A stretch of DNA of 64,000 nt from assembly GCA_028715505.1 (NCBI GenBank), contig JAQURS010000003.1, forward strand, positions 50,510-114,509. Direction: 5' to 3'. The position numbers and the translations under genes are program-made. Positions 2,689 to 12,190 of this stretch are shown here, piece by piece. The DNA is from Patescibacteria group bacterium. GTDB taxonomy: Bacteria; Patescibacteriota; Patescibacteriia; 2-12-FULL-60-25. Under the pieces are notes generated by a model. That model did no database searches, was not told the origin of the DNA, and saw only the letters and a program-made list of their open reading frames with translations. The stretch's first letter is position 1. Each line of letters opens with the position of its first letter.

Positions 2689-2764
2689 CGCGGGGTAGAG
2701 CAGTTGGCAGCTCGCCAGGCCCATAACCTGGAGGTCGTGGGTTCAAGTCCCACCCCCGCAACCA
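2689..2764 (+). tRNA. initiator tRNA-fMet (CAT), integration site of the element
   Basis: A 76-nt cloverleaf starting CGCGGGG and ending CCCCGCAACCA. The unpaired C1-A72 is the initiator hallmark, and the anticodon loop contains CAT. The last 26 nt (2739-2764) recur exactly at 12162-12187, marking the integration site. The gene therefore remains complete, with its present 3' end joined to the element. Confidence 0.96.
2739..2764 (+). repeat. attachment site, tRNA-proximal copy (26 bp)
   Basis: These are the last 26 bases of tRNA-fMet, identical to 12162-12187. The bases immediately before (T vs C) and after (ACAC vs AGTA) differ, which sets the core limits. Confidence 0.9.
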
Positions 2765-2770
2765 ACACAG

Positions 2771-2801
2771 AACACACCGATAACGCGGTGTGTTTTGTTT
2801 T
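2771..2801 (+). terminator. terminator after tRNA-fMet
   Basis: AACACACCG and CGGTGTGTT arms around ATAACG, followed by TTGTTTT. It belongs to the element, since the original chromosomal terminator now sits at 12191-12220. Confidence 0.8.
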
Positions 2802-2836
2802 AATTACGTTAATCAAGCCAAAAGAGTGATCCTTCT

Positions 2837-3952
2837 TCACTTGGGGCAGATTTCGATTTTAGCGAGTAGACTTTCCAGGTTGACGCCAGGTTGACAAATT
2901 TTAAACGCCTCCCTTTTTTCGGCTTTCTCTAAAACCTCTACTGCTGATTTGAGTGCCGATGGAGCTAGATGGGCGTATCGCATGGTCATTATTATGCTGG
3001 AGTGTCCCATTAATTCTTGGACGGTGTTCAACGGGACGCCCTCACTGACTAATTGAGAGGCGAAGGTGTGGCGCAGGACGTGCCAGCCTATGAGGCGTAT
3101 TTTTGCCTTTTTACAGGCTCGATGTATCGCGTTCTCGGCGATCTTGTAGGATAACGGCGTCCCGTCTCCTCGGTGGAAAACGAGCCCCTTACCTTGTCTG
3201 CGCTCGTAAATCATTCGGCATAACTCGTCGGTGATTGGAATGAATCGGATCTTGTTATTTTTAGGCGTCCCTTTAATCCCTCTCACTATTGAGTGCCTGA
3301 CGCAGATAAGTTTGCGGTCAAAATCCACATCCGACCATTCGAGGCCAAACAATTCTCCAAGTCTCATGCCGGTTCTTAAAGCCATAAAGATCATCTCCCT
3401 CCACTTCGGTTCATCGCAATTTTGGACCAGAGACACGCTTTCAACCGGTGATAGGAAATCGAAACGTTGAGACTCGGCTTTAAGCTTTACTATTTTCGGC
3501 AACTTTTCCAATTTTCCCCATTCATGAGCGACCCGGAGACAACGCGATAGAATCGTAAGGTGATTATTTACCGTTTTCTTGGATAACTTCATGGATAACT
3601 TGGAGGCTTTGTATTCTTCCGTTAGCTTGGAATCTATAAGCCCAAGTTCTACTTGGCCGAAAAACGGATCAAGATGATTTCTCAGAATCGATTCCTTGGT
3701 CCTAATCTCAGATGGTTTATTGGCAGCTTTAGCTGAGGTCTCGAACCACTCGCGGGCGAAATCCCGAAATAAGACGTCTTCTCCTAACGTCGATTCTCGT
3801 TCAATATCTTCACCATTCGCCAGCCGGCGTCGTAATAACGCTTCATATTCCTGGGCCCCAATCTTTGAATTCGACGGGCTCCTCTTGCGGATCCTTCTGA
3901 GATCGTGTTGGAAATCAACCCACCACGATTTTTTAATCTTTCTGACTCCCAT
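2837..3952 (-). CDS. int: tyrosine recombinase (phage-type integrase)
   Basis: Site-specific recombinase for integration at and excision from tRNA-fMet. It has an N-terminal core-binding domain (about residues 60-150) and a C-terminal catalytic domain with Arg193 (RTGMRLGEL), a Lys in the following hairpin (NNKIRF), His291-x-x-Arg294 (HVLRH), a second His in ELMGH and nucleophile Tyr326 (MRYAHL), so the catalytic set is complete. I use the ATG at 3952 (371 aa). The open frame continues to 4045, but that extension overlaps the excisionase heavily. The gene points toward the tRNA and its start lies within the end of the excisionase gene. Confidence 0.95.
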   Translation of the reverse strand: MGVRKIKKSWWVDFQHDLRRIRKRSPSNSKIGAQEYEALLRRRLANGEDIERESTLGEDVLFRDFAREWFETSAKAANKPSEIRTKESILRNHLDPFFGQVELGLIDSKLTEEYKASKLSMKLSKKTVNNHLTILSRCLRVAHEWGKLEKLPKIVKLKAESQRFDFLSPVESVSLVQNCDEPKWREMIFMALRTGMRLGELFGLEWSDVDFDRKLICVRHSIVRGIKGTPKNNKIRFIPITDELCRMIYERRQGKGLVFHRGDGTPLSYKIAENAIHRACKKAKIRLIGWHVLRHTFASQLVSEGVPLNTVQELMGHSSIIMTMRYAHLAPSALKSAVEVLEKAEKREAFKICQPGVNLESLLAKIEICPK

Positions 3953-4214
3953 ATCCGGCGTCTCTTTTAGACTTTTCAAGGCATTCCAAAACGTCCTTTT
4001 TCTTAAATAACAGCTTTCGACAAACTCGGTAGACGGGCAGGACATTCCTGGCTATCAGCCGATGGATGCTTATTTGGGAAAGCCTTAAGAAATTAGCGAC
4101 TTCCTTCAGATTGAGGAGTTCTAAATCTCCATTTAAAGATAAATTGGCGGTTTCTGACATATCTTTTTGTTGTCGAGGAGCGCCAACCGACTGATTTTGG
4201 GTATTTGTGAACAT
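3933..4214 (-). CDS. excisionase-like helix-turn-helix protein
   Basis: A 93-aa protein whose C-terminal two thirds read as a MerR/excisionase-type domain (HTH_17): LNLKEVANFLRLSQISIHRL, then RNVLPVYRV and LLFKKKDVLECLE, i.e. HTH, wing and strand. Such proteins bend attachment-site DNA and steer the integrase toward excision. It overlaps the integrase start by 20 bp, suggesting coupled translation. A shorter start at 4160 is possible. A pair of direct repeats upstream (4251-4281) could be its operator. Confidence 0.8.
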   Translation of the reverse strand: MFTNTQNQSVGAPRQQKDMSETANLSLNGDLELLNLKEVANFLRLSQISIHRLIARNVLPVYRVCRKLLFKKKDVLECLEKSKRDAGYGSQKD

Positions 4215-4250
4215 AACAGATAATTAAAGAAAGAGTAAGGGTAAAAATAA

Positions 4251-4281
4251 TTTTCTTCATATAAAAATATTTCCTTCATAT
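4251..4281. repeat. two direct repeats upstream of the excisionase gene
   Basis: TTTCTTCATAT (4252-4262) and TTCCTTCATAT (4271-4281) are spaced by 19 bp, close to two helix turns. An operator or recombination-factor site is a guess from position. The rest of 4282-4401 holds only an imperfect inverted repeat, CCCATAAA ... TTTATGGG (4304-4337), without a clear T-run. Confidence 0.4.
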
Positions 4282-4401
4282 TGAAACCGCGCCGGGTCCG
4301 TGTCCCATAAACACCTCAAATTTTCTTGTTTTATGGGGGCTAGGAGGTTAGTTTTTCTTACTTCATCGTCTAAATGTAGGCGAGTACGTCTTTACGGTGT
4401 C

Positions 4402-4596
4402 TCATTGTTTTTCAGCGGGTTTTTCCGGGGGATTTTTTGAATCTTCTTGTTCTGAGGGAGCCTTGGGTTTTTTACCCCTACGAAAGCCCCAAAGCGCGCA
4501 GTCTTTTGAAGGACAGAGTTTAACCTCCTTCATTTGGCCGCACATGCAATCGAGGCACTTGAGTCTGATCGCCTTTAATGGTGTTAGTTTTGGCAT
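4402..4596 (-). CDS. small Cys-rich putative zinc protein, 64 aa
   Basis: The pattern LKAIRLKCLDCMCGQMKEV then CPSKDCALW, followed by a basic and Pro-rich tail, is one I associate with small proteins of phages and integrated elements (LKAIR-x-x-C-x-x-C ... C-x(4)-C-x-L). Four or five cysteines suggest a zinc knuckle. No function is known to me. The start overlaps the end of the HTH gene by 13 bp, so the two are cotranscribed. Confidence 0.75.
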   Translation of the reverse strand: MPKLTPLKAIRLKCLDCMCGQMKEVKLCPSKDCALWGFRRGKKPKAPSEQEDSKNPPEKPAEKQ

Positions 4597-5366
4597 AAAA
4601 GATTGTTATAAGTGAGGACAAATTCATTTTTCTGTATCCAATCATAAATCTTAACGTAATTTTTCAGCACTAAGGTGGGTGAAGCAGCAATGGGGAAGTA
4701 GTCATAGTCGGGTGATTTTTCAATAATTTTAATTAGCCTTTCAATATCCCCCCCTTCCATTTCTAGTTCTAAGAGCTCTTCAGCCGCTTTCAGCTCGCGG
4801 TTGTATTTTTTTTCCGAGCGGGGAGAACGACCGCAACACTCTCGGCCGAGCGCTGGACTTAACTCAAAAAATTTGAATAACAATTCTTCAGCGATGGATT
4901 GATTCGGGGTCGAGCTATGTTTCGACAAAGATATACCCCCAAACTCTTCCCCTTCGTAAGGGGAAGGGGGTTTGGTTATTTTTTCTTCTTTTTTAACTCG
5001 GTTCTTGTTAATGGTCTCGTCCGCCTGCTGTACGCCCTCCGTACGGGTGGTATCTATATCATCAGGGCAGTCGTGGATCTCCCAGTTCCAACGTCCAAAC
5101 CGTCCATCCGCCGATCGCAGGTGCTCCTTTGTGATCCACTTCATTTTGATGAGTTCTGCTCTGCCGCGCTTTACCCGACCAACACCAAACCCAATTTCTT
5201 TAGCTTGGGTACGAATCGATGGGAAACAATCACCGGTGCGGTTGTTTTTATGAGCGGCGAAATTATGAAAAACTAACTTGGCCTCTAAAGATAACGAGGG
5301 GTCGAGATCGATTCTTCGGGGACACTTGTACCAGCCACGAATTTTTTTGTTTTTCATATTTTTCAA
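4584..5366 (-). CDS. helix-turn-helix protein, possible replication initiator of the element
   Basis: A 260-aa protein. Residues 15-100 match the HTH_36-type winged helix of phage and plasmid replication proteins: RIDLDPSLSLEAKLVFHNF, then CFPSIRTQAKEIGFG, then a basic helix and wing. The middle part (about 130-145) is low-complexity and contains a translated palindrome (4939-4975). The C terminus (160-260) is acidic and helical. Replication initiator or regulator is inferred from domain and position at the divergent control region. No ATPase or relaxase motif is present. Confidence 0.7.
   Translation of the reverse strand: MKNMKNKKIRGWYKCPRRIDLDPSLSLEAKLVFHNFAAHKNNRTGDCFPSIRTQAKEIGFGVGRVKRGRAELIKMKWITKEHLRSADGRFGRWNWEIHDCPDDIDTTRTEGVQQADETINKNRVKKEEKITKPPSPYEGEEFGGISLSKHSSTPNQSIAEELLFKFFELSPALGRECCGRSPRSEKKYNRELKAAEELLELEMEGGDIERLIKIIEKSPDYDYFPIAASPTLVLKNYVKIYDWIQKNEFVLTYNNLLCQN
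4939..4975. repeat. GC-rich palindrome inside the HTH gene
   Basis: CTTCCCCTT and AAGGGGAAG arms around CGT, extended by CCAAAC and GTTTGG. In the reading frame it gives PSPYEGEE. Similar C-run/G-run palindromes are at 17280-17324 and 21100-21141, and a shorter one at 7210-7230. Confidence 0.6.
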
Positions 5367-5843
5367 TTCAAAAAGACGATTCGCCTCTCGACGACGATGT
5401 GGTCTTACGATAAAAACCGCGATTTTCGCGGCTTTTTTCTAATTCCTTACTTTGTCAGTCAATACGAAATGAAGAAAAAAGCTCGCAAGATCTTTAGAAT
5501 GAGATTTTTATACTTCATTTGGGCCACCTATGAGGCTACCGAATTCTACGTTGGTCTTATTTTATCTGGTTTTAACAGGCGTGTCAAATCTTCAAAACAA
5601 AAAGCGGGTAGTAGTTAAACTCTCAATGGATAGATTTCAAAACCGTCTTGAAAAAAAAGAAGCCAGTTCCTTATCCCGGGTCCTAGTTTACTGACCTTGG
5701 AGTCCCTAGGAACCACCCCCCGGCTACTCTAATATAGCTTTACTTTTTTCCGGAACCTCTCTGGTTCTAAGGTTAGCCCATAAGGAGTCGATTATGAGGC
5801 GCTTTTTAGCTTATTTTAGGCCTTTTATTCATTTTCTAAATAT
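5367..5843. other. divergent control region of the element, no convincing gene
   Basis: This 477-bp AT-rich gap separates the two divergent arms. It holds a hairpin with T-runs on both sides (CCGCGA ... TCGCGG, 5416-5438) and a second hairpin, GGAACC ... GGTTCT, near 5753-5770. An open frame at 5397-5618 has no start signal or recognisable content. Promoters for both arms, and possibly a replication origin, would be expected here, but I see no iterons. Confidence 0.45.
5416..5438. terminator. bidirectional terminator-like hairpin
   Basis: A six-bp stem CCGCGA/TCGCGG with A5 before and T6 after can work on either strand. It lies about 50 nt upstream of the minus-strand HTH gene, so it may attenuate or insulate rather than end a gene. 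Confidence 0.5.
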
Positions 5844-6164
5844 ATGTCAGAGTCAATCACGTGCGTTCGATTACCTAATACCAAAACAAAATACACGGGT
5901 TCTAGAATCACCTACGAGATGGTCAAACGACAGATAGAGCAGAGGTTTGGTCAAGAGATGGCAGATAAATACGATCCTCTTGTGTCTGTCCGTCCATTTC
6001 AGGACTGGATCAAGCTGGGTTATAAGGTTAAACAAGGCGAGAAGGGATTGAGATCACTCATCTTCTTGGAGAGGCGAGACGAAAAGAATGGAATCACCAG
6101 GAGATTTCCAAAAGTCATCTGGCTCTTTCATGAATGCCAGGTCGAATCACTTAACCAAAACTAA
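5844..6164 (+). CDS. ArdC-N-terminal-like small protein, 106 aa
   Basis: The stretch W-I-K-L-G-Y-K-V-K-Q-G-E-K-G followed by strands ending LFHECQV resembles the N-terminal ssDNA-binding module of ArdC antirestriction proteins (W-x(4)-G-x-x-V-x-K-G-E-K-G ... F-x-x-x-Q). The metalloprotease part (HExxH) of full ArdC is absent. It opens the right arm and is followed 3 nt later by the next gene. No Shine-Dalgarno site is seen. An antirestriction or ssDNA role is inference. Confidence 0.6.
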   Translation: MSESITCVRLPNTKTKYTGSRITYEMVKRQIEQRFGQEMADKYDPLVSVRPFQDWIKLGYKVKQGEKGLRSLIFLERRDEKNGITRRFPKVIWLFHECQVESLNQN

Positions 6165-6166
6165 AT

Positions 6167-6355
6167 ATGAACTCAAATACGTCACTCATGGAGCATGAAA
6201 AGCAGTTGGACATAAATTCCTACCAGGCTACAGCTCATCCAACCGGCCAGGCCTCTTCTTGCCACCATAGGTTTGTGAGACATCGGATCATTGATTGGGA
6301 ACATGGGAGGGTTTTGACCATCTATTTCTGCTCTCTTTGTGGTGAAGAAAGATAA
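6167..6355 (+). CDS. small putative zinc-binding protein, 62 aa
   Basis: The C-terminal half has CHHRF and then CSLCGEER, an H/C and C-x-x-C arrangement typical of a single zinc ribbon. The N-terminal part is polar and probably disordered. It starts 2 nt after the ArdC-like gene. No specific family recognised. Confidence 0.6.
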   Translation: MNSNTSLMEHEKQLDINSYQATAHPTGQASSCHHRFVRHRIIDWEHGRVLTIYFCSLCGEER

Positions 6356-6364
6356 TCTAAACAT

Positions 6365-6664
6365 ATGAATCAAATTCCAAACGCGGTCATAGCCCCTTTA
6401 GCTTCTTTGGGGGTGAATGGTAGCAATCAGCTCTTTTTGGTCAGCATAAGGCCCATTAGGCATGAAAATGAGCTTAAATACCAAGCTACTAGCCAGGAAG
6501 AGACTCCCAAGGGGCAAATGACCGTCAAGCAGAGAAGGTTAGTGGTTCAACTCATTTCTCGACACTTCTTTGATCGAAAAGAGAGGGATGCTGAGCTACT
6601 AAAAATCGAAGGGTTCGATAAGGCTGATGCTGATGCCTACATTAAAAACCTGATAAGCCGTTAG
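6365..6664 (+). CDS. hypothetical protein, 99 aa
   Basis: Soluble. The N-terminal half looks beta-rich, while the C-terminal half is helical and charged (KQRRLVVQLISRHFFDRKERDAELL ... DKADADAYI, only in part quoted). It is the third gene of the short operon starting at 5844, and a terminator follows. Function unknown. Confidence 0.6.
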   Translation: MNQIPNAVIAPLASLGVNGSNQLFLVSIRPIRHENELKYQATSQEETPKGQMTVKQRRLVVQLISRHFFDRKERDAELLKIEGFDKADADAYIKNLISR

Positions 6665-6670
6665 GGGTAG

Positions 6671-6709
6671 GAGGGGGTTTCTGTCCTATGGGCAAAGGCC
6701 CCCTCTTTT
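6671..6709 (+). terminator. terminator of the 5844-6664 operon
   Basis: GAGGGGG (6671-6677) pairs with CCCCCTC (6699-6705), followed by TTTT. Confidence 0.6.
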
Positions 6710-6743
6710 GACTTTCTTTGTTAATAGAGGCATATTTATAAAC

Positions 6744-6912
6744 GTTCCCATCATCATGGGGACTCAATCAGACAATTTATAGCCTAAACCGTCCTTTGGG
6801 CGGCATGGCATCAAGACCCTACCAAGATACTGAACCCGTCGTTCAGCGTCCTTGGTAGGGCAGTACTCCGAAAGGTGTACGGGCGATCGAAAGATTGCCG
6901 GCTGGCGGCGGG
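6744..6912 (+). ncRNA. candidate structured RNA, orphan
   Basis: At least five hairpins lie in a row in the gap between two genes. (1) GT-CCCAT/ATGGG-AC, 6744-6763. (2) CCGTCC/GGGCGG with loop TTT, 6789-6803, flanked by CCTAAA (6783-6788) and CATGG (6804-6808). (3) A long hairpin, 10 bp (6817-6826 with 6851-6860) plus 6 bp CTGAAC/GTTCAG, loop CCGTC. (4) GTACTCC-GAAA-GGTGTAC, 6863-6880. (5) GGCGATC-GAAA-GATTGCC, 6882-6899. The flanks of hairpin 2 nearly match the 11-nt GAAA-tetraloop receptor (CCUAAG/UAUGG), and hairpins 4 and 5 carry GAAA loops, so a tertiary fold is plausible. I do not recognise an Rfam family. Strand is assumed from the neighbours. A replication or transfer origin is an alternative. 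Confidence 0.6.
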
Positions 6913-6944
6913 CTTTGTGTTTTTAATAACTTCACTCAATTTTT

Positions 6945-7856
6945 ATGATGAACTTGCTTGAAAGAATAAGACCCTACTTTAGATTGTCCATCTTACTAAT
7001 TCCATTTTTAACATTCGCTGGGTGCGGCAGCTCTTTAGACTCTCCTGTTGCTTTGGATAACTATAAACAACCGCTACAGATCGGGAATGATCAGACTAAC
7101 TCAACAATGCCCTCGATTGAGCAGCAACCGACCATGGATACTCAAAATCAAGAAGAAAAGGATAAGGCTTGCACCGAGCAAGTTGGCCCAAGTAGATATA
7201 TTCAGAACCCCCCTTCTTTAGGGGGAGGAGCTTACTGTGACTGTAATGAAGGTTACACATGGGATGTGAAGACACTGCATTGCTTACCCAAAGATAATGA
7301 CGGGAGTCAGATAGTAGGTACTTACGACAATTCAACTAATAAGGGGAATGGCGAGTGTACGAGTTTTGAATATTCTCGATGGAATAATTGTTCCGTCGAT
7401 GGGACGCAATATAGGCTCATAACCAAGACCTATCCCACGGATAACTGCTCTGGGGGCAATCCTGTTCAGCAGAGAACATGCGAATATACGTTGACCGATT
7501 TTGGTACCGCAGAAGATTTATTTAAAAAAATGGAGAACCAACTTCTATCAGATCCGGGACATCTTGTTAGTATGGAATATCGGACTGGTGAAGATAATAA
7601 AGATATAGCTAACACGGAATGGTTTATAACTAAAGATGGCTATTACTCTATTCGTCATGTGATTAAAAATGCCAGCGGCCAGATAGCTAATATTGTTCAG
7701 ATGTGGGATACGAATGGTGATTTTAGGCCGGAGTTTCTTTCGGCCAACAACGGCCCGATGCAAAAGATGGATATGAGTCAGCCAAGTGATCAAGACATGG
7801 TTTTGCTTTGGGGTGTTTTGAATACCATTTTTGGCTCCTTTTTACTCAATTCTTGA
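6945..7856 (+). CDS. secreted lipoprotein with EGF-like and TSP1-like Cys modules
   Basis: A lipoprotein signal peptide runs to the lipobox LTFAGC. About residues 77-110 form a short Cys module (YCDCNEGYTWD ... LHC). About 130-185 read as a thrombospondin type-1-like unit (ECTSFEYSRWNNCS-x-DGTQ-R ... C-x-GG-x-P-x-x-x-R-x-C). The C-terminal 110 residues are an unrecognised domain. Residues QNPPSLGGGAY come from a short G/C palindrome. It is probably anchored at the cell surface; adhesion or recognition is inference. A second ATG is at 6948, and there is no clear Shine-Dalgarno site. Confidence 0.75.
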   Translation: MMNLLERIRPYFRLSILLIPFLTFAGCGSSLDSPVALDNYKQPLQIGNDQTNSTMPSIEQQPTMDTQNQEEKDKACTEQVGPSRYIQNPPSLGGGAYCDCNEGYTWDVKTLHCLPKDNDGSQIVGTYDNSTNKGNGECTSFEYSRWNNCSVDGTQYRLITKTYPTDNCSGGNPVQQRTCEYTLTDFGTAEDLFKKMENQLLSDPGHLVSMEYRTGEDNKDIANTEWFITKDGYYSIRHVIKNASGQIANIVQMWDTNGDFRPEFLSANNGPMQKMDMSQPSDQDMVLLWGVLNTIFGSFLLNS

Positions 7857-7860
7857 TAGT

Positions 7861-8019
7861 ATGAAAAATGAAACATATATCGGAATAGGTTTAGGTAACC
7901 TTATTGCCGCAATACTTTCTTGGTCGGTCAACCAGTCTGTTCTTTTGGGGTTGGTTCACGCTTTATTGGGGTGGTTCTATGTCATCTATTGGATAATTTA
8001 TTACAAGCTAATCATATGA
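7861..8019 (+). CDS. small two-helix membrane protein, 52 aa
   Basis: Almost entirely two hydrophobic helices: IGIGLGNLIAAILSW-SV-NQS, then LVHALLGWFYVIYWIIYY. The S-W-x-x-N-x-S ... H-x-x-x-G-W-x-Y-V-I-Y pattern occurs in small proteins of phages and plasmids as I remember them. The ATG at 7861 is 4 nt after the previous stop; the upstream in-frame start at 7831 would overlap that gene. Its TGA overlaps the next ATG (ATGA arrangement). Function unknown. Confidence 0.65.
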   Translation: MKNETYIGIGLGNLIAAILSWSVNQSVLLGLVHALLGWFYVIYWIIYYKLII

Positions 8020-9137
8020 GCTTTAAGACATTTGTCATTTTATTGGCTGGGCTAGTATTTTGCCTACCAGTCCCGTCCCTAGCATCAGGTCTCGTCTCCA
8101 ATCTCCAAGGTCACATTCTCCTCCAAGTCGAACAAAGGGGAGAGGCTTGGTACGTCAATCCCAAGGATCAAAAGAGGTATTACATGAAGGATGGTCCGAC
8201 GGCTTATGAGATGATGAGGAAGTTTGGACTAGGCATCACTGATAGTGACCTTAAGAAGGCTCAGGAAGGGGATAAAACTCTCCTAGGGCGCATTAAGGGC
8301 CAAATAGTGCTTCAAGTTCAAGCTCATGGCGAGGCTTTTTACGTCCATCCTGACAGTTTGACTCTCTATTACCTTAAGGATGGCGAAGCTGCTTACACCT
8401 TAATGAGAGAAAAGAGCCTAGGGATAACTAATGCCAATCTGGGGCTTATTCCTGCCGGACAGATCGTCGTACAAACCCCTACAGCTACTCCTCTTGCCGC
8501 TGTTTCGACTCCGACCCCAACGCCGACCTATACGGCTCAGGTCGCTACCCCGGCTCCCACTCCCGCTCCGACCACTTCCGTGCCAGAGCCGGCCGTGGTT
8601 TTGCCTTATGGGCCAGCTGCTAATTCGAATCCAGCAGTTTCAAATACATCAAACAGATCAGCATCTTCAAGCCAGGATCTGCAACAACAAATAGCTGACC
8701 TCCAAAATCAGGTCGATACCTTAAATAATCAGCTCAACCCTCCGCCACCTCCACCTCCGCCGGCTGAGCCAAAGCCACAAATACTGTCTTTGACGACTCA
8801 ATATTTGGTATACCCACCGGATAGATACTTTGTTTCGTGGAATACGGCTAATACCATAGCTTGTGAATCGCATCGGTCATATTGGGTAGATACCTTCACT
8901 CCTTCTTCAACACCGGTCTTTTTGCCAGAACCGAAAGAGAGCGATGTCGTTAAGCAGCTTAAGAATATGTTGGTTGGGTATCAGACTTCGATGTATCTGA
9001 ATTCTAGCTACGCTGGTCGTACTTACGACAATTTTGACCAGACGTGGACGCTTTGGTGCATAAATAAGGCCGGAGATGTCACTAAGAAAACCTTAACAGT
9101 GCCTGCCAATACTCCTAACCCTTATGCCTCCCATTAA
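8016..9137 (+). CDS. secreted surface protein with two Trp/Tyr wall-type repeats
   Basis: A 373-aa protein with signal peptide (FVILLAGLVFCLPVPSLASG). Two repeats of about 60 aa follow (about 30-90 and 92-150), each with G-x-I-x-LQVE/QAHGEAWYV/FYV-x-P ... YY-x-KDG-x-AY-x-x-MR ... LGIT, a module very common in Patescibacteria surface proteins. A Thr/Pro-rich linker, a short coiled coil (QDLQQQIADLQNQVDTLNNQ), a Pro-run and a C-terminal domain with two cysteines complete it. Start 8016 is chosen because the signal peptide begins there and it overlaps the previous stop; the frame is open further upstream. A role in binding host cells or wall is inference. Confidence 0.85.
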   Translation: MSFKTFVILLAGLVFCLPVPSLASGLVSNLQGHILLQVEQRGEAWYVNPKDQKRYYMKDGPTAYEMMRKFGLGITDSDLKKAQEGDKTLLGRIKGQIVLQVQAHGEAFYVHPDSLTLYYLKDGEAAYTLMREKSLGITNANLGLIPAGQIVVQTPTATPLAAVSTPTPTPTYTAQVATPAPTPAPTTSVPEPAVVLPYGPAANSNPAVSNTSNRSASSSQDLQQQIADLQNQVDTLNNQLNPPPPPPPPAEPKPQILSLTTQYLVYPPDRYFVSWNTANTIACESHRSYWVDTFTPSSTPVFLPEPKESDVVKQLKNMLVGYQTSMYLNSSYAGRTYDNFDQTWTLWCINKAGDVTKKTLTVPANTPNPYASH

Positions 9138-9195
9138 TCCCGAGAGCGTCAAATTCCTACAGGCGGTTAAACGGAAGGTGGTGGAGCCACACGGG

Positions 9196-9402
9196 ATGAG
9201 ATATTTAGTTGTGGCCTCACTTGTTCTTACCCTTTTTGGCTCTGGCTGCTCTAATGACTCTAGCCAGGGCGCCTATTCCAGCGGATCTGGCAGCCGAAGC
9301 GGTTGCTGTCGAATCTGCAGCAAGGGTAAGGCTTGCGGCGACTCGTGTATATCTAGAAATTTGACCTGTCACAAGTCCGTTGGATGCGCGTGTGATGGAT
9401 AG
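9196..9402 (+). CDS. small Cys-rich lipoprotein, 68 aa
   Basis: Lipoprotein signal MRYLVVASLVLTLFGSGC, then a Ser/Gly linker and a compact Cys module, GCCRICSKGKACGDSCISR ... CHKSVGCACDG. This K-G-K-x-C-G-x-S-C-I ... C-H-K-x-x-G-C-A-C module recurs in small bacterial proteins, but its function is unknown to me. The ATG at 9196 is chosen over the in-frame one at 9124 because it begins the signal peptide and avoids overlap with the previous gene. Confidence 0.75.
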   Translation: MRYLVVASLVLTLFGSGCSNDSSQGAYSSGSGSRSGCCRICSKGKACGDSCISRNLTCHKSVGCACDG

Positions 9403-9461
9403 CTCTCTTGACAGGAACAAATAACGGCAACACAATGGGGCATTAACTCCTTTTTCAGGAT

Positions 9462-10058
9462 ATGGATCCGACGAAGGATTTCAGCCATTTCATTGCTTAT
9501 TATCTCCCAGGCGCCCTATCGGCACTGGTTTTTTTGCTTTTTAGCTCATGCCTGGTTGGTCGTAATTTGTTAGCTGATTTCGGATCAAATATCGGGGCGT
9601 ACGCCATAATTTTTTTAATAGGAGGTAGCGTACTCGGCCTGATTCTAGACGAAGCGCACCATCTTTGGCTGGACCCTTATTATGAAAAGAGTTGGGCAAA
9701 GAGCAATAATTGTGATATCGGCTCTATACAAAATGAGCCTGATTTTATGGTCAGTGCTAAAGATTTTGGTTTACCACTTTACCAGCAGCTACTCGAAGAG
9801 CAATACTATTATTACGAGTTTGATGTGAATATCGCCGTAGCACTGACTCTCCTTTCAATTGCCGCCCCGATTTATCTTTACACCTTTTCATTGGTTTTGA
9901 ACTGGGCTGCCCTGAGTCTAACATTCTTGATCCCGCTCATCTTGGGAATAATTTCATGGAAATTCGGTGCGAAAACTTATCAGGACTTTTACACTATATC
10001 CGTCGATCTTATCTCAACCGTCGATCCAGATTACTTAAAACGTATTAAGAAACTTTAA
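9462..10058 (+). CDS. integral membrane protein, 198 aa
   Basis: Four hydrophobic segments: about residues 13-31, 42-62, 123-143 and 148-168. A soluble loop of about 60 residues separates the second and third; it is rich in acidic and aromatic residues and starts with EAHHLWLDPYYEKSW. No family recognised. The position within the right arm suggests membrane cargo of the element. Confidence 0.7.
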   Translation: MDPTKDFSHFIAYYLPGALSALVFLLFSSCLVGRNLLADFGSNIGAYAIIFLIGGSVLGLILDEAHHLWLDPYYEKSWAKSNNCDIGSIQNEPDFMVSAKDFGLPLYQQLLEEQYYYYEFDVNIAVALTLLSIAAPIYLYTFSLVLNWAALSLTFLIPLILGIISWKFGAKTYQDFYTISVDLISTVDPDYLKRIKKL

Positions 10059-10064
10059 ATTCCT

Positions 10065-10220
10065 ATGAGCAATTTCAATATCCGACAAAAAAGAGGACCT
10101 GTGCGTAGCAGGCCATCCAATGCTCCGCGCCAAACTCCTTCAAGTGCGACTCCCAACAATTCGCCACAAATACCAATTCAGAATGCCCCCCAGAAACCAC
10201 CCGAAGTACCAAAAAAATAA
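10065..10220 (+). CDS. short Pro/Asn/Gln-rich basic protein, 51 aa
   Basis: An ATG 6 nt after the previous stop opens a 51-codon frame ending TAA 2 nt before the next ATG. The product (MSNFNIRQKRGPVRSRPSN ...) is basic at the N terminus and rich in Pro, Gln and Asn, probably disordered. Tight spacing on both sides supports a real cotranscribed gene. Function unknown. Confidence 0.55.
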   Translation: MSNFNIRQKRGPVRSRPSNAPRQTPSSATPNNSPQIPIQNAPQKPPEVPKK

Positions 10221-10222
10221 CT

Positions 10223-11131
10223 ATGGGCACCTCGTCTAACGCCAGGGCTCTTTTTGATAAATTAAATCCCGATTACATATCCGCAGAGATGGTAGGTAAA
10301 GAATTCGAAAACAACTGGCTAGAATGTAAAATTAAGGAAGGCAAAGACCCTAATGGATTGGATGAATCTGATAAATCACATTTTGCAAAGGCTTTATCTG
10401 GATTTGCAAATACATCGGGAGGCGTTTTGATTTTTGGTCTCAACGCGAGGAGAAAGGATGGAATCGATATAATCCAATCTGTTGAACCTATAAAGAACAT
10501 GGCAAAGATTGAATCAGCGCTGCGAGAACAAGAAAGTCGCTTAGTAGAAAGAGCTGTTTTTGGCGTGGAATATAAGGCAATCCCGATGGATGGCGATCAA
10601 GGATTGATTGCGATCTTTATCCCTGAAAGTGCCAGACTCCCACATAGGAGTATGAAGGATAGGCATTTTTATATCCGTGCAGGTGGGACATTTCAGGCAC
10701 TAGACTTGAATATCATTGAGGACCTTTTTTCAAGGAGACTACGACCTAAACTAGAATTCATTTTAAGGCCATTGGGTGGAAATGAATTCATGGTTTGTTT
10801 GGCCAACCCCGGGGAAGTGACCGCGAAAGATCCTCATGTTGTCTTTCGTATTCCGGATCATTTTAACACTACTGGGTATGAACTCGATGGGAACACGCGC
10901 CTTCATACTTGGGTACAAATAAACGATTATAAGGGTCAAAAAGGTCGATTTTTAGCATTTCAAGATGGCATCAATAGACCGGTTCACCCATCATCTGAAA
11001 TCCAATTATTACAGTTAAGATACGATTTAAACAAACCTTCAGTTCCCTATTTCTCCATTGAGTACCATCTTTCAGCGGAAAATATGCCACAGGTTGATGG
11101 ATCTTTTGAGGCTCTTGTCCTCAAAAAATAA
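10223..11131 (+). CDS. Schlafen / AlbA_2 (AAA_4-type) DNA-binding domain protein
   Basis: Residues 25-165 match the Schlafen AlbA_2 domain: NNWLECKIKEG, SGFANTSGGVLIFGLNAR, and YIRAGGTFQALDL near 155. The C-terminal 130 residues are a beta-rich domain I cannot name. The family binds or cleaves nucleic acid and often occurs next to defence genes. Two bases separate it from the HEPN/Abi_C gene, so the two are one transcription unit. An anti-phage role is inference from domains and location in an integrative element. Confidence 0.8.
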   Translation: MGTSSNARALFDKLNPDYISAEMVGKEFENNWLECKIKEGKDPNGLDESDKSHFAKALSGFANTSGGVLIFGLNARRKDGIDIIQSVEPIKNMAKIESALREQESRLVERAVFGVEYKAIPMDGDQGLIAIFIPESARLPHRSMKDRHFYIRAGGTFQALDLNIIEDLFSRRLRPKLEFILRPLGGNEFMVCLANPGEVTAKDPHVVFRIPDHFNTTGYELDGNTRLHTWVQINDYKGQKGRFLAFQDGINRPVHPSSEIQLLQLRYDLNKPSVPYFSIEYHLSAENMPQVDGSFEALVLKK

Positions 11132-11132
11132 T

Positions 11133-11984
11133 ATGTCAAACGATCAGATCCAGATTCCACATTCTGTAATTGTAACTACTGCAAGTGTACTTTCCATTCA
11201 CTATACTAATCGTGAGATTGATACTCTTTTTCCGGAGTTAGGTTTTCCGGGTGAATCCCCCAAAGATGCTGGAAATAAGGCAAATAAAATTTTGGTTTGG
11301 TTAAAGAGGTTGAATAAGGAAAAACCGGAAGAGGCTTTTGATATTCTTGGGAAAGCCCTTGAAGATCTTATGGAGTCTGAGCCAATGTATCTCTTTGATG
11401 AAAGTAATATGTCGCAAAGATTAGAGGCAAGGAAGAGAATCAGGACGGTTCTTGGTAACAATGGTATGGAATATGTTAAAGGAGGTAAAGTCTCGAGAAT
11501 TGGCCAGCCGTCTCTTTTGACTAAAAATTTAAACCAAATACTCTTGACTCGTGATTTGTCTTCTCTAAAGAAAGAGTTCGATCGATCTGTCGATTTGTGC
11601 GAAAAAGACCCCGAAGCTGCTATTACGGCGGCCTGCGCGATTCTGGAATCGTTCTGTAGGGTTTACATAGAAGAGAATGGCCTGGAAATGCCGGCCGATA
11701 AGACTCTGATAACTCTATGGGCTTTGGTAAAAAAGCAGCTAGGTATGGATCCAAAGCTGTATGATGGGGATGATAATTTGAGATGTATCATCCAGGGATT
11801 GGGTTCGGTGGTTCAGGCTATAGCAAAAATAAGGACAGAAAGAGGTTCGGCTCACGGTAGGGGAAAGGCGATTTACAGAGTGAGTGCTAGGCATGCCAGA
11901 CTGGTTGTAGGAGCCGCTCATATCTTAACGACATATCTTTTGGAATCTTGGGAAAGAAAGAAGGTAACTGAACCTCCATTTTAA
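11133..11984 (+). CDS. abortive-infection family protein with C-terminal HEPN (Abi_C) domain
   Basis: A 283-aa protein. Residues about 165-275 follow the Abi_C pattern: AACAILESFCRVYIEENG, then LRCIIQGLGSVVQAIAKIR, then RTERGSAHGRG (Arg234 to His241, the R-x(4-6)-H of HEPN RNases), then RHARLVVGAAHILTTYLLE. The N-terminal part (HYTNREIDTLFPELGFPG, KANKILVWLKRLNKE) resembles the helical region of AbiJ-like proteins. Predicted to be an RNase toxin of an abortive-infection system. The start 11133 is used because it directly follows the previous stop; the frame is open to 11058. Confidence 0.8.
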   Translation: MSNDQIQIPHSVIVTTASVLSIHYTNREIDTLFPELGFPGESPKDAGNKANKILVWLKRLNKEKPEEAFDILGKALEDLMESEPMYLFDESNMSQRLEARKRIRTVLGNNGMEYVKGGKVSRIGQPSLLTKNLNQILLTRDLSSLKKEFDRSVDLCEKDPEAAITAACAILESFCRVYIEENGLEMPADKTLITLWALVKKQLGMDPKLYDGDDNLRCIIQGLGSVVQAIAKIRTERGSAHGRGKAIYRVSARHARLVVGAAHILTTYLLESWERKKVTEPPF

Positions 11985-12161
11985 GCCATTGCCTGTTAGC
12001 CTATTCCCAAAATCGGTTGACGCTCCGTTGACATTTAAGAGTTAAATTTAGTTAGTTTTAGAACAGAACAGGTGACTTAAGATTTTTGTGTTTTTGGCCA
12101 GGTTCACTGTCTTTATTGACTTTTGGCCTAACTTAAGGCTAAACGCTCGTTGGCTAGAAAC

Positions 12162-12187
12162 GGGTTCAAGTCCCACCCCCGCAACCA
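12162..12187 (+). repeat. attachment site, distal copy (26 bp)
   Basis: Exact copy of the last 26 nt of tRNA-fMet (T-arm through CCA), without a 5' tRNA half. It marks the far end of the element. The interval 11985-12161 before it holds no gene or repeat that I can see. Confidence 0.9.
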
Positions 12188-12190
12188 AGT

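Follow-up and report, generated by a model that had tools for sequence, protein, structure and literature searches.

Here, we report that a noncoding interval of the window (the whole 64,000-nt stretch of Patescibacterial DNA analysed), bounded by the end of one gene at 6664 and the start of the next at 6945, almost certainly encodes a LOOT RNA (Rfam RF03000), and that LOOT very probably is the leader of the gene that follows it. The fold extends beyond the Rfam model by a covarying helix between the P2 loop and a 3' tail, and in many relatives strands of the RNA could pair with copies placed at the downstream start site. Scanned against Rfam with cmscan, the window matched LOOT at 6781-6899 (+) over the full length of the model (1-121 of 121) with 74.4 bits against a gathering cut-off of 46.4 (E = 3.8e-12). 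LOOT was the sole non-tRNA family matched in the window, and it alone was reported over 6600-7000 at E up to 1, where no c4 model matched. The window RNA is a new member of an already known family, to which Rfam gives the type 'Gene; sRNA'. The 169 nt from 6744 to 6912 fold at -70.5 kcal/mol (z = -4.83), and 0 of 200 shuffles were as stable. Coordinates are collected in Table 1.

Table 1. Features of the LOOT locus and its element, in window coordinates.
Feature	Position	Strand	Basis
Integrative element carrying LOOT, ~9.4 kb	2739..12188		27-bp exact repeat of tRNA-Met 3' end (2739-2765, 12162-12188)
Promoter-like TTGACT-17-CATATT, best promoter match upstream of this LOOT copy	6708..6736	+	Consensus scan, 9 of 12
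Conserved start-site box ACAATTTAT	6772..6780	+	Match to ACAATTTAA box
Extended LOOT RNA including 3' tail	6777..6926	+	Own covariance model R1, 120.6 bits (partly by construction, because the window copy is a training row of R1)
LOOT RNA core, P1-P4	6781..6899	+	Rfam RF03000, 74.4 bits
P1 with 11-nt GAAA receptor: CCUAAA 6783-6788 / CAUGG 6804-6808, A.C for the usual G.U	6783..6808	+	Read from the letters; barely varies among relatives
P2, with outer strands a (6817-6826) and a' (6851-6860) that vary between loci and an apical hairpin at 6830-6846	6817..6860	+	Folds in 128/129 relatives
b, P2 apical loop strand pairing with 3' tail	6835..6842	+	9 covarying pairs
P3 with GAAA loop 6870-6873	6862..6880	+	GAAA in 125/129; helix covaries
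P4 with GAAA loop 6889-6892	6881..6899	+	Helix covaries; loop variable
b', 3' tail strand (6905-6912 with 6835-6842; U6914 with A6833)	6905..6914	+	Covariation; outside Rfam model
U-rich tract after tail, terminator-like	6914..6924	+	Direct reading
First gene after LOOT: 303 aa putative lipoprotein	6945..7856	+	Starts 18 nt after extended model
SLFN_AlbA_2 protein, then Abi_C/AbiJ-like protein (later element genes)	10223..11984	+	Pfam 8.1e-12 and 4.9e-17; PADLOC AbiJ 4e-17

The original prediction, made from the letters of the window, had proposed a noncoding RNA whose fold includes a GAAA-receptor contact and possibly a pairing of a loop with the 3' flank, and had left its class unnamed. The family match, the covariation in 44 relatives and the invariant GAAA and receptor letters support this reading, with the loop pairing as a pseudoknot, and give the class as LOOT. 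All five hairpins that it listed in 6744-6912 are present in the sequence. The first of them (6744-6763), however, is located 5' of both the LOOT model and the conserved ACAATTTAA box, was not seen in relatives and falls outside the family. In five relatives (L053, L067, L084, L089 and L108) a small additional hairpin separates the ACAATT box from P1; its place differs from that of the 6744-6763 hairpin.

The genome of the window (1.07 Mb) holds a single LOOT copy. LOOT was found in 11 of the 57 genomes of the relatives set, the window's own genome counted in. Of 379 genomes sampled from the phylum, 83 carry it, and one genome can have as many as seven copies. One exact pattern run over 84,980 species genomes returned 88 stretches, 80 of which were taken as loci (L133-L212); its confident matches are labelled Uhr-, Levy-, Yanofskybacteria and the like, or simply 'bacterium', which points to Patescibacteria, and the search outside this phylum was not exhaustive because the pattern was built from Patescibacterial copies. 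Candidates from Kangiellaceae, Poribacteria, Chromatiales, Halobacteria, Alcaligenaceae, Gammaproteobacteria and Rhodoferax were rejected, having no model match or fewer than 21 bits. No full LOOT was found in viral contigs, where the same pattern matched two contigs only: one is a group I intron, and the other has promoter-like letters and P1 alone. The counts below refer to set 1, from which a 21-bit opposite-strand match in L062 was left out, and to set 2, from which 20 of 82 loci were left out (duplicate contigs, non-matches, short or cut matches). Covariation was read from a sequence-only alignment with flanks of 44 of the 45 A1 loci, L014 having been dropped as a near copy of L007.

The four-helix layout of LOOT was found across the family: P1, P3 and P4 covary in the 44-locus alignment, and P2 is present in 128/129 RNAs. 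The outer strands of P2 vary between loci yet match within each locus, the strand a pairing with its own a' at -17.4 kcal/mol against -4.6 kcal/mol for mixed pairs (128/129). Beyond this layout, RNAalifold by itself joined the P2 loop to the 3' tail, i.e., outside the Rfam model, which stops before the tail. This loop-tail helix (b with b') has nine pairs, every one of which is changed on both sides among the 44 loci; 97.2% of its cells are paired, compared with 44-57% when the strands are slid, and its covariation score was reached by 0 of 500 shuffles. At one pair, G-C occurs 16 times, C-G 15, U-G seven and A-U six, and the pair is never broken. The pairing that had been proposed for the window, CCGTC (6836-6840) with GGCGG at 6904-6908, is real and covarying, but its register was three bases off, as the helix uses the second GGCGG (6907-6911).

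These pairs also bear on the possibility that what is conserved is a DNA feature, i.e., an origin of transfer or replication, or a site at which the element recombines. The location of LOOT in integrative elements would suit such a feature, and an origin had been named beforehand as an explanation that would undo the RNA reading. However, 91 of 396 loop-tail cells are G.U, and 97% of the cells are paired on the RNA strand compared with 76% on the complement; a transfer or replication origin is disfavoured because these G.U pairs would be A.C mismatches on the other strand. A GAAA loop with its receptor is an RNA contact, promoter-like letters precede LOOT and a gene follows it, and the ends of the element (2739 and 12188) are away from LOOT. 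We regard the DNA explanation as very improbable.

The strands CCTAAA and CATGG had been recognised as the 11-nt tetraloop receptor with A-C in place of G-U, and the CCUAA/AUGG core is indeed near-invariant in relatives. Receptor strands CCUAA-A/C-AUGG occur in 37/67 rows of set 1, with C/U at the variable position in 14 and C/C, C/A or G/C in a few; set 1 alone counts here, because set 2 was chosen by receptor letters. Both GAAA tetraloops that had been pointed out are present in the window, but P3 alone is conserved as GAAA, in 125/129 LOOT RNAs; the P4 loop (n = 129) is GAAA in 46, another GNRA in 59, UNCG-like in 13 and something else in 11. P3 is the likely docking loop because its GAAA is kept while the P4 loop varies, and its conserved letters suggest that it likely docks into the P1 receptor. 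In the part of a receptor study drawn on here, 98 receptor variants were chosen as wild-type-like, including those with A-C, C-A or C-C for G-U and a UACGG form, and A-C and C-C variants were treated as GAAA binders (PMC11381326). A group I intron on an IMG/VR contig (L131:8733-9031, minus strand) carries CCUAAAC...GGCAUGG, i.e., the A.C receptor variant of LOOT.

The gene after LOOT lies on the LOOT strand in 60/66 loci of set 1 and 56/58 of set 2 (five contig-edge cases excluded), which gives 116/124 overall (P = 1e-25 against one half), and it starts a median of 25-30 nt after the tail; the genes before LOOT are on mixed strands (25 plus, 40 minus). About 12 nt before the receptor, the ACAATTTAA box scores at least 8.5 of 12.5 in 63/66 loci, and in many loci TATAAT-like letters stand 7-13 nt before it. 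The window copy keeps the box but has no good TATAAT at that spacing, and the promoter scan is weak alone, with three sites in 500 bases compared with 0.6 expected. Downstream, at least five T in 7 nt follow the tail in 120/129 LOOT loci; the consensus scan of the window found one terminator-like site, at 6895-6911, compared with 0.6 expected. A GC-rich inverted repeat with T's at 6671-6705 of the window is likely the terminator of the upstream gene and would separate the transcription unit of LOOT from that gene.

The promoter-like letters of its own, the U tract and the sRNA type in Rfam would fit a small RNA that stands by itself, with its 3' end at the U tract and its action elsewhere, the next gene having its own promoter and being a neighbour by chance or through shuffling of mobile modules. 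The short distance to a same-strand gene, however, leaves little room for another promoter, and the strand a2 described below abuts or overlaps the start codon. We consider a free-standing RNA somewhat unlikely, and leadership of the next gene remains our preferred reading.

As for what LOOT would lead, the putative lipoprotein of the window has no Pfam or PADLOC family, and among 56 other relatives homologues of it were found in three, as short partial matches alone. An N-terminal membrane segment is predicted in 72/119 first genes compared with 109/631 other ORFs. Family scans of 116 first-gene proteins (3 of 119 were left out) gave seven DNA methylases, three D12 methylases, four staphylococcal-nuclease homologues, superinfection-exclusion PHROGs, one Imm_superinfect and one Lipoprotein_Ltp. 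In some loci a candidate reading frame starting from conserved AUG letters in P1 runs through LOOT.

In many loci two further strands lie downstream of the tail: b2, which comes after the U tract and can pair with b', and a2, which repeats a and adjoins the start codon or overlaps it. At cut-offs of a score of 9 or more for a2 and -14 kcal/mol or better for b2, a2 was found in 17/66 loci of set 1 (1.35 expected) and 10/60 of set 2 (1.05 expected), and b2 in 35/66 (13.6 expected) and 26/60 (10.7 expected); none of 5000 permutations per set reached the b2 counts, in controls that ignore kinship among loci. Position supports this, as among 116 loci 27 copies of a2 fall in the first 120 nt after LOOT compared with 1 to 4 in each of four other windows of sequence, and b2 stands next to the tail in 57 compared with 6-12 elsewhere. 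In total, a2 occurs in 27/126 and b2 in 61/126 loci as candidate partners at the downstream start site (L051 and L057 have both), and neither is clear in the window, where the tail pairs downstream at -9.0 kcal/mol (a weak b2) and the sole a-like copy, AAGACCCTAC (6968-6977), is within the gene. With no clear a2 or b2 in this copy, the fold, the leader position and the tail alone apply to the window. The order of the strands, a b a' b' b2 a2, is such that a' and b' can pair backward within LOOT or forward over the start codon; in a nested model of 128 loci the best fold has P2 in 72 and the paired tail in 56.

Neither a2 nor b2 reaches the cut-offs in 24/66 loci of set 1 and 33/60 of set 2. 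This share of about half would suit a passive role for LOOT, as a 5' scaffold lending stability or a boost to cargo messages in foreign hosts, with a2 and b2 as relics of local duplication, and a compact 5' fold on cargo of diverse kinds points the same way. In many loci, however, b2 directly follows the tail and a2 lies at the start codon, and a passive scaffold leaves the match of a2 and b2 to the locus-specific a and b unexplained. The locus L177:600-4300 has three tandem units of ~0.9 kb, each with promoter-like letters, a P1-only LOOT remnant and a gene, followed by a complete LOOT. The remnants resemble what a deletion from a to a2 would leave, and leaders of this kind would also suit a scaffold. 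We hold the scaffold to be improbable. Competing downstream pairings around a tertiary-contact core, with conservation at the receptor, the GAAA and an A-rich joining strand, may instead suggest a ligand- or protein-sensing leader, riboswitch-like, in which tail, b2 and a2 would be the expression platform. Besides the receptor, the GAAA and the A-run there are few conserved unpaired letters, so no pocket is obvious, and the cargo genes share no pathway; we consider a sensing leader unlikely as well.

The reading that we favor, with confidence about evenly balanced, is a family-wide leader-plus-switch, i.e., a leader RNA with its own promoter that uses alternative pairing to control the cargo gene it precedes; for control of LOOT by alternative pairing as such, our confidence falls somewhat below even. 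In this scheme LOOT would be made from its own promoter and would form the 5' leader of a mobile element's first cargo gene. The RNA would fold compactly, with the P3 GAAA docked in the P1 receptor and b paired with b' just before the U tract, and the b/b' helix with the following U's would end some transcripts early. In many relatives a' and b' may then leave a and b and pair with a2 and b2 downstream. Such pairing, whether in cis or between a terminated LOOT RNA and a sister message, would hide the start. The pairing of a with a' should win over that of a' with a2 unless disturbed, because it is local, and b2 cannot affect termination itself because it is made after the U tract. One detail fits less well: the unpaired A's preceding a are repeated in 20/27 a2 copies, and simple antisense pairing does not need them. 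Promoter use, termination, start masking, action in trans and the direction of control are what we infer from these patterns.

LOOT of the window lies inside an element integrated at tRNA-Met, as the integrase (Pfam 1.9e-33) adjoining the tRNA-Met repeat, the direct repeats and an empty site in a relative show; in this relative (L223), the tRNA 3' end joins sequence like the right flank directly (60 nt, 83%, E 2.6e-12). A further stretch (G000:C2:172514-172581) is 90% identical to the tRNA-Met 3' half plus downstream flank and may be another tRNA-Met or an old attachment site. Within the element, the AbiJ-like/Abi_C gene (11130-11981) and the SLFN_AlbA_2 gene upstream of it are possible defence cargo. 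The protein at 8019-9137 is surface-like, has a repeated GEAWYVNP-type motif and no Pfam family, and shares 36% identity over 148 aa with the gene directly after LOOT in L193. Across Patescibacteria, a recombinase or terminase marker was found near LOOT in 45/60 regions compared with 0/20 controls (Fisher P = 9e-10), the controls being hand-picked at round coordinates in the same genomes and the marker queries coming from LOOT regions. Of these 60 regions, 39 have serine recombinase genes near LOOT, seven tyrosine integrase genes and 11 terminase-like genes.

In the literature searched no function was found for LOOT: the passages of the Rfam 14 and Rfam 15 papers that show it as an example and add two covarying pairs to it, respectively, give none. 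The literature drawn on included PMC7657543, PMC7779021 and PMC11701678. The extended fold, the leader position and the start-site mimics were not found in this literature either, and some of this may already stand in the founding paper (Weinberg 2017) or its supplement. The tail helix, the place before cargo genes and the copies of start sites suggest a testable job: LOOT may control the cargo of mobile elements, superinfection-exclusion proteins and methylases among it, in Patescibacteria, a group in which experiments on phages and on gene control are few.

Among known systems, c4 of phages P1 and P7 is a structured antisense RNA whose strands a' and b' pair at the ribosome-binding site and set specificity, according to the parts of the sources drawn on (PMC5320573, PMC12197685). 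LOOT resembles c4 by analogy in having two variable strands, a' and b', that would be able to pair near a start site; it differs in fold, cargo and host, and no c4 family match occurs here. c4 and its target are transcribed from one promoter. By extension, LOOT could be a c4-like immunity RNA of Patescibacterial mobile elements, with a and b as a private code that matches the start site of its own cargo, such that the RNA of a resident element would silence the same cargo in an incoming sister element and not in elements of other codes. We rate this idea as doubtful; if it were true, genes of superinfection and lysogenic conversion would be under code-specific control by RNA, in a lineage whose phage biology is hardly known. 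GOLLD and ROOL, like LOOT, are structured bacterial RNAs; neither was matched in the Rfam scan of the window. Both are linked to phages and are far larger than LOOT. LOOT as described in Rfam shares with the window the P1-P4 layout, the receptor letters and the GAAA loops, but it is without the 3' tail or loop-tail helix and is filed as an sRNA, whereas here it is the probable leader of the next gene. Finally, the 11-nt GAAA receptor of group I and group II introns has the same CCUAA/AUGG core with a strict GAAA partner; it has G.U where LOOT has A.C in the window and most relatives, and also C.U, C.C, C.A or G-C. The LOOT family provides 11-nt receptor variants from nature that correspond to ones tested in vitro.
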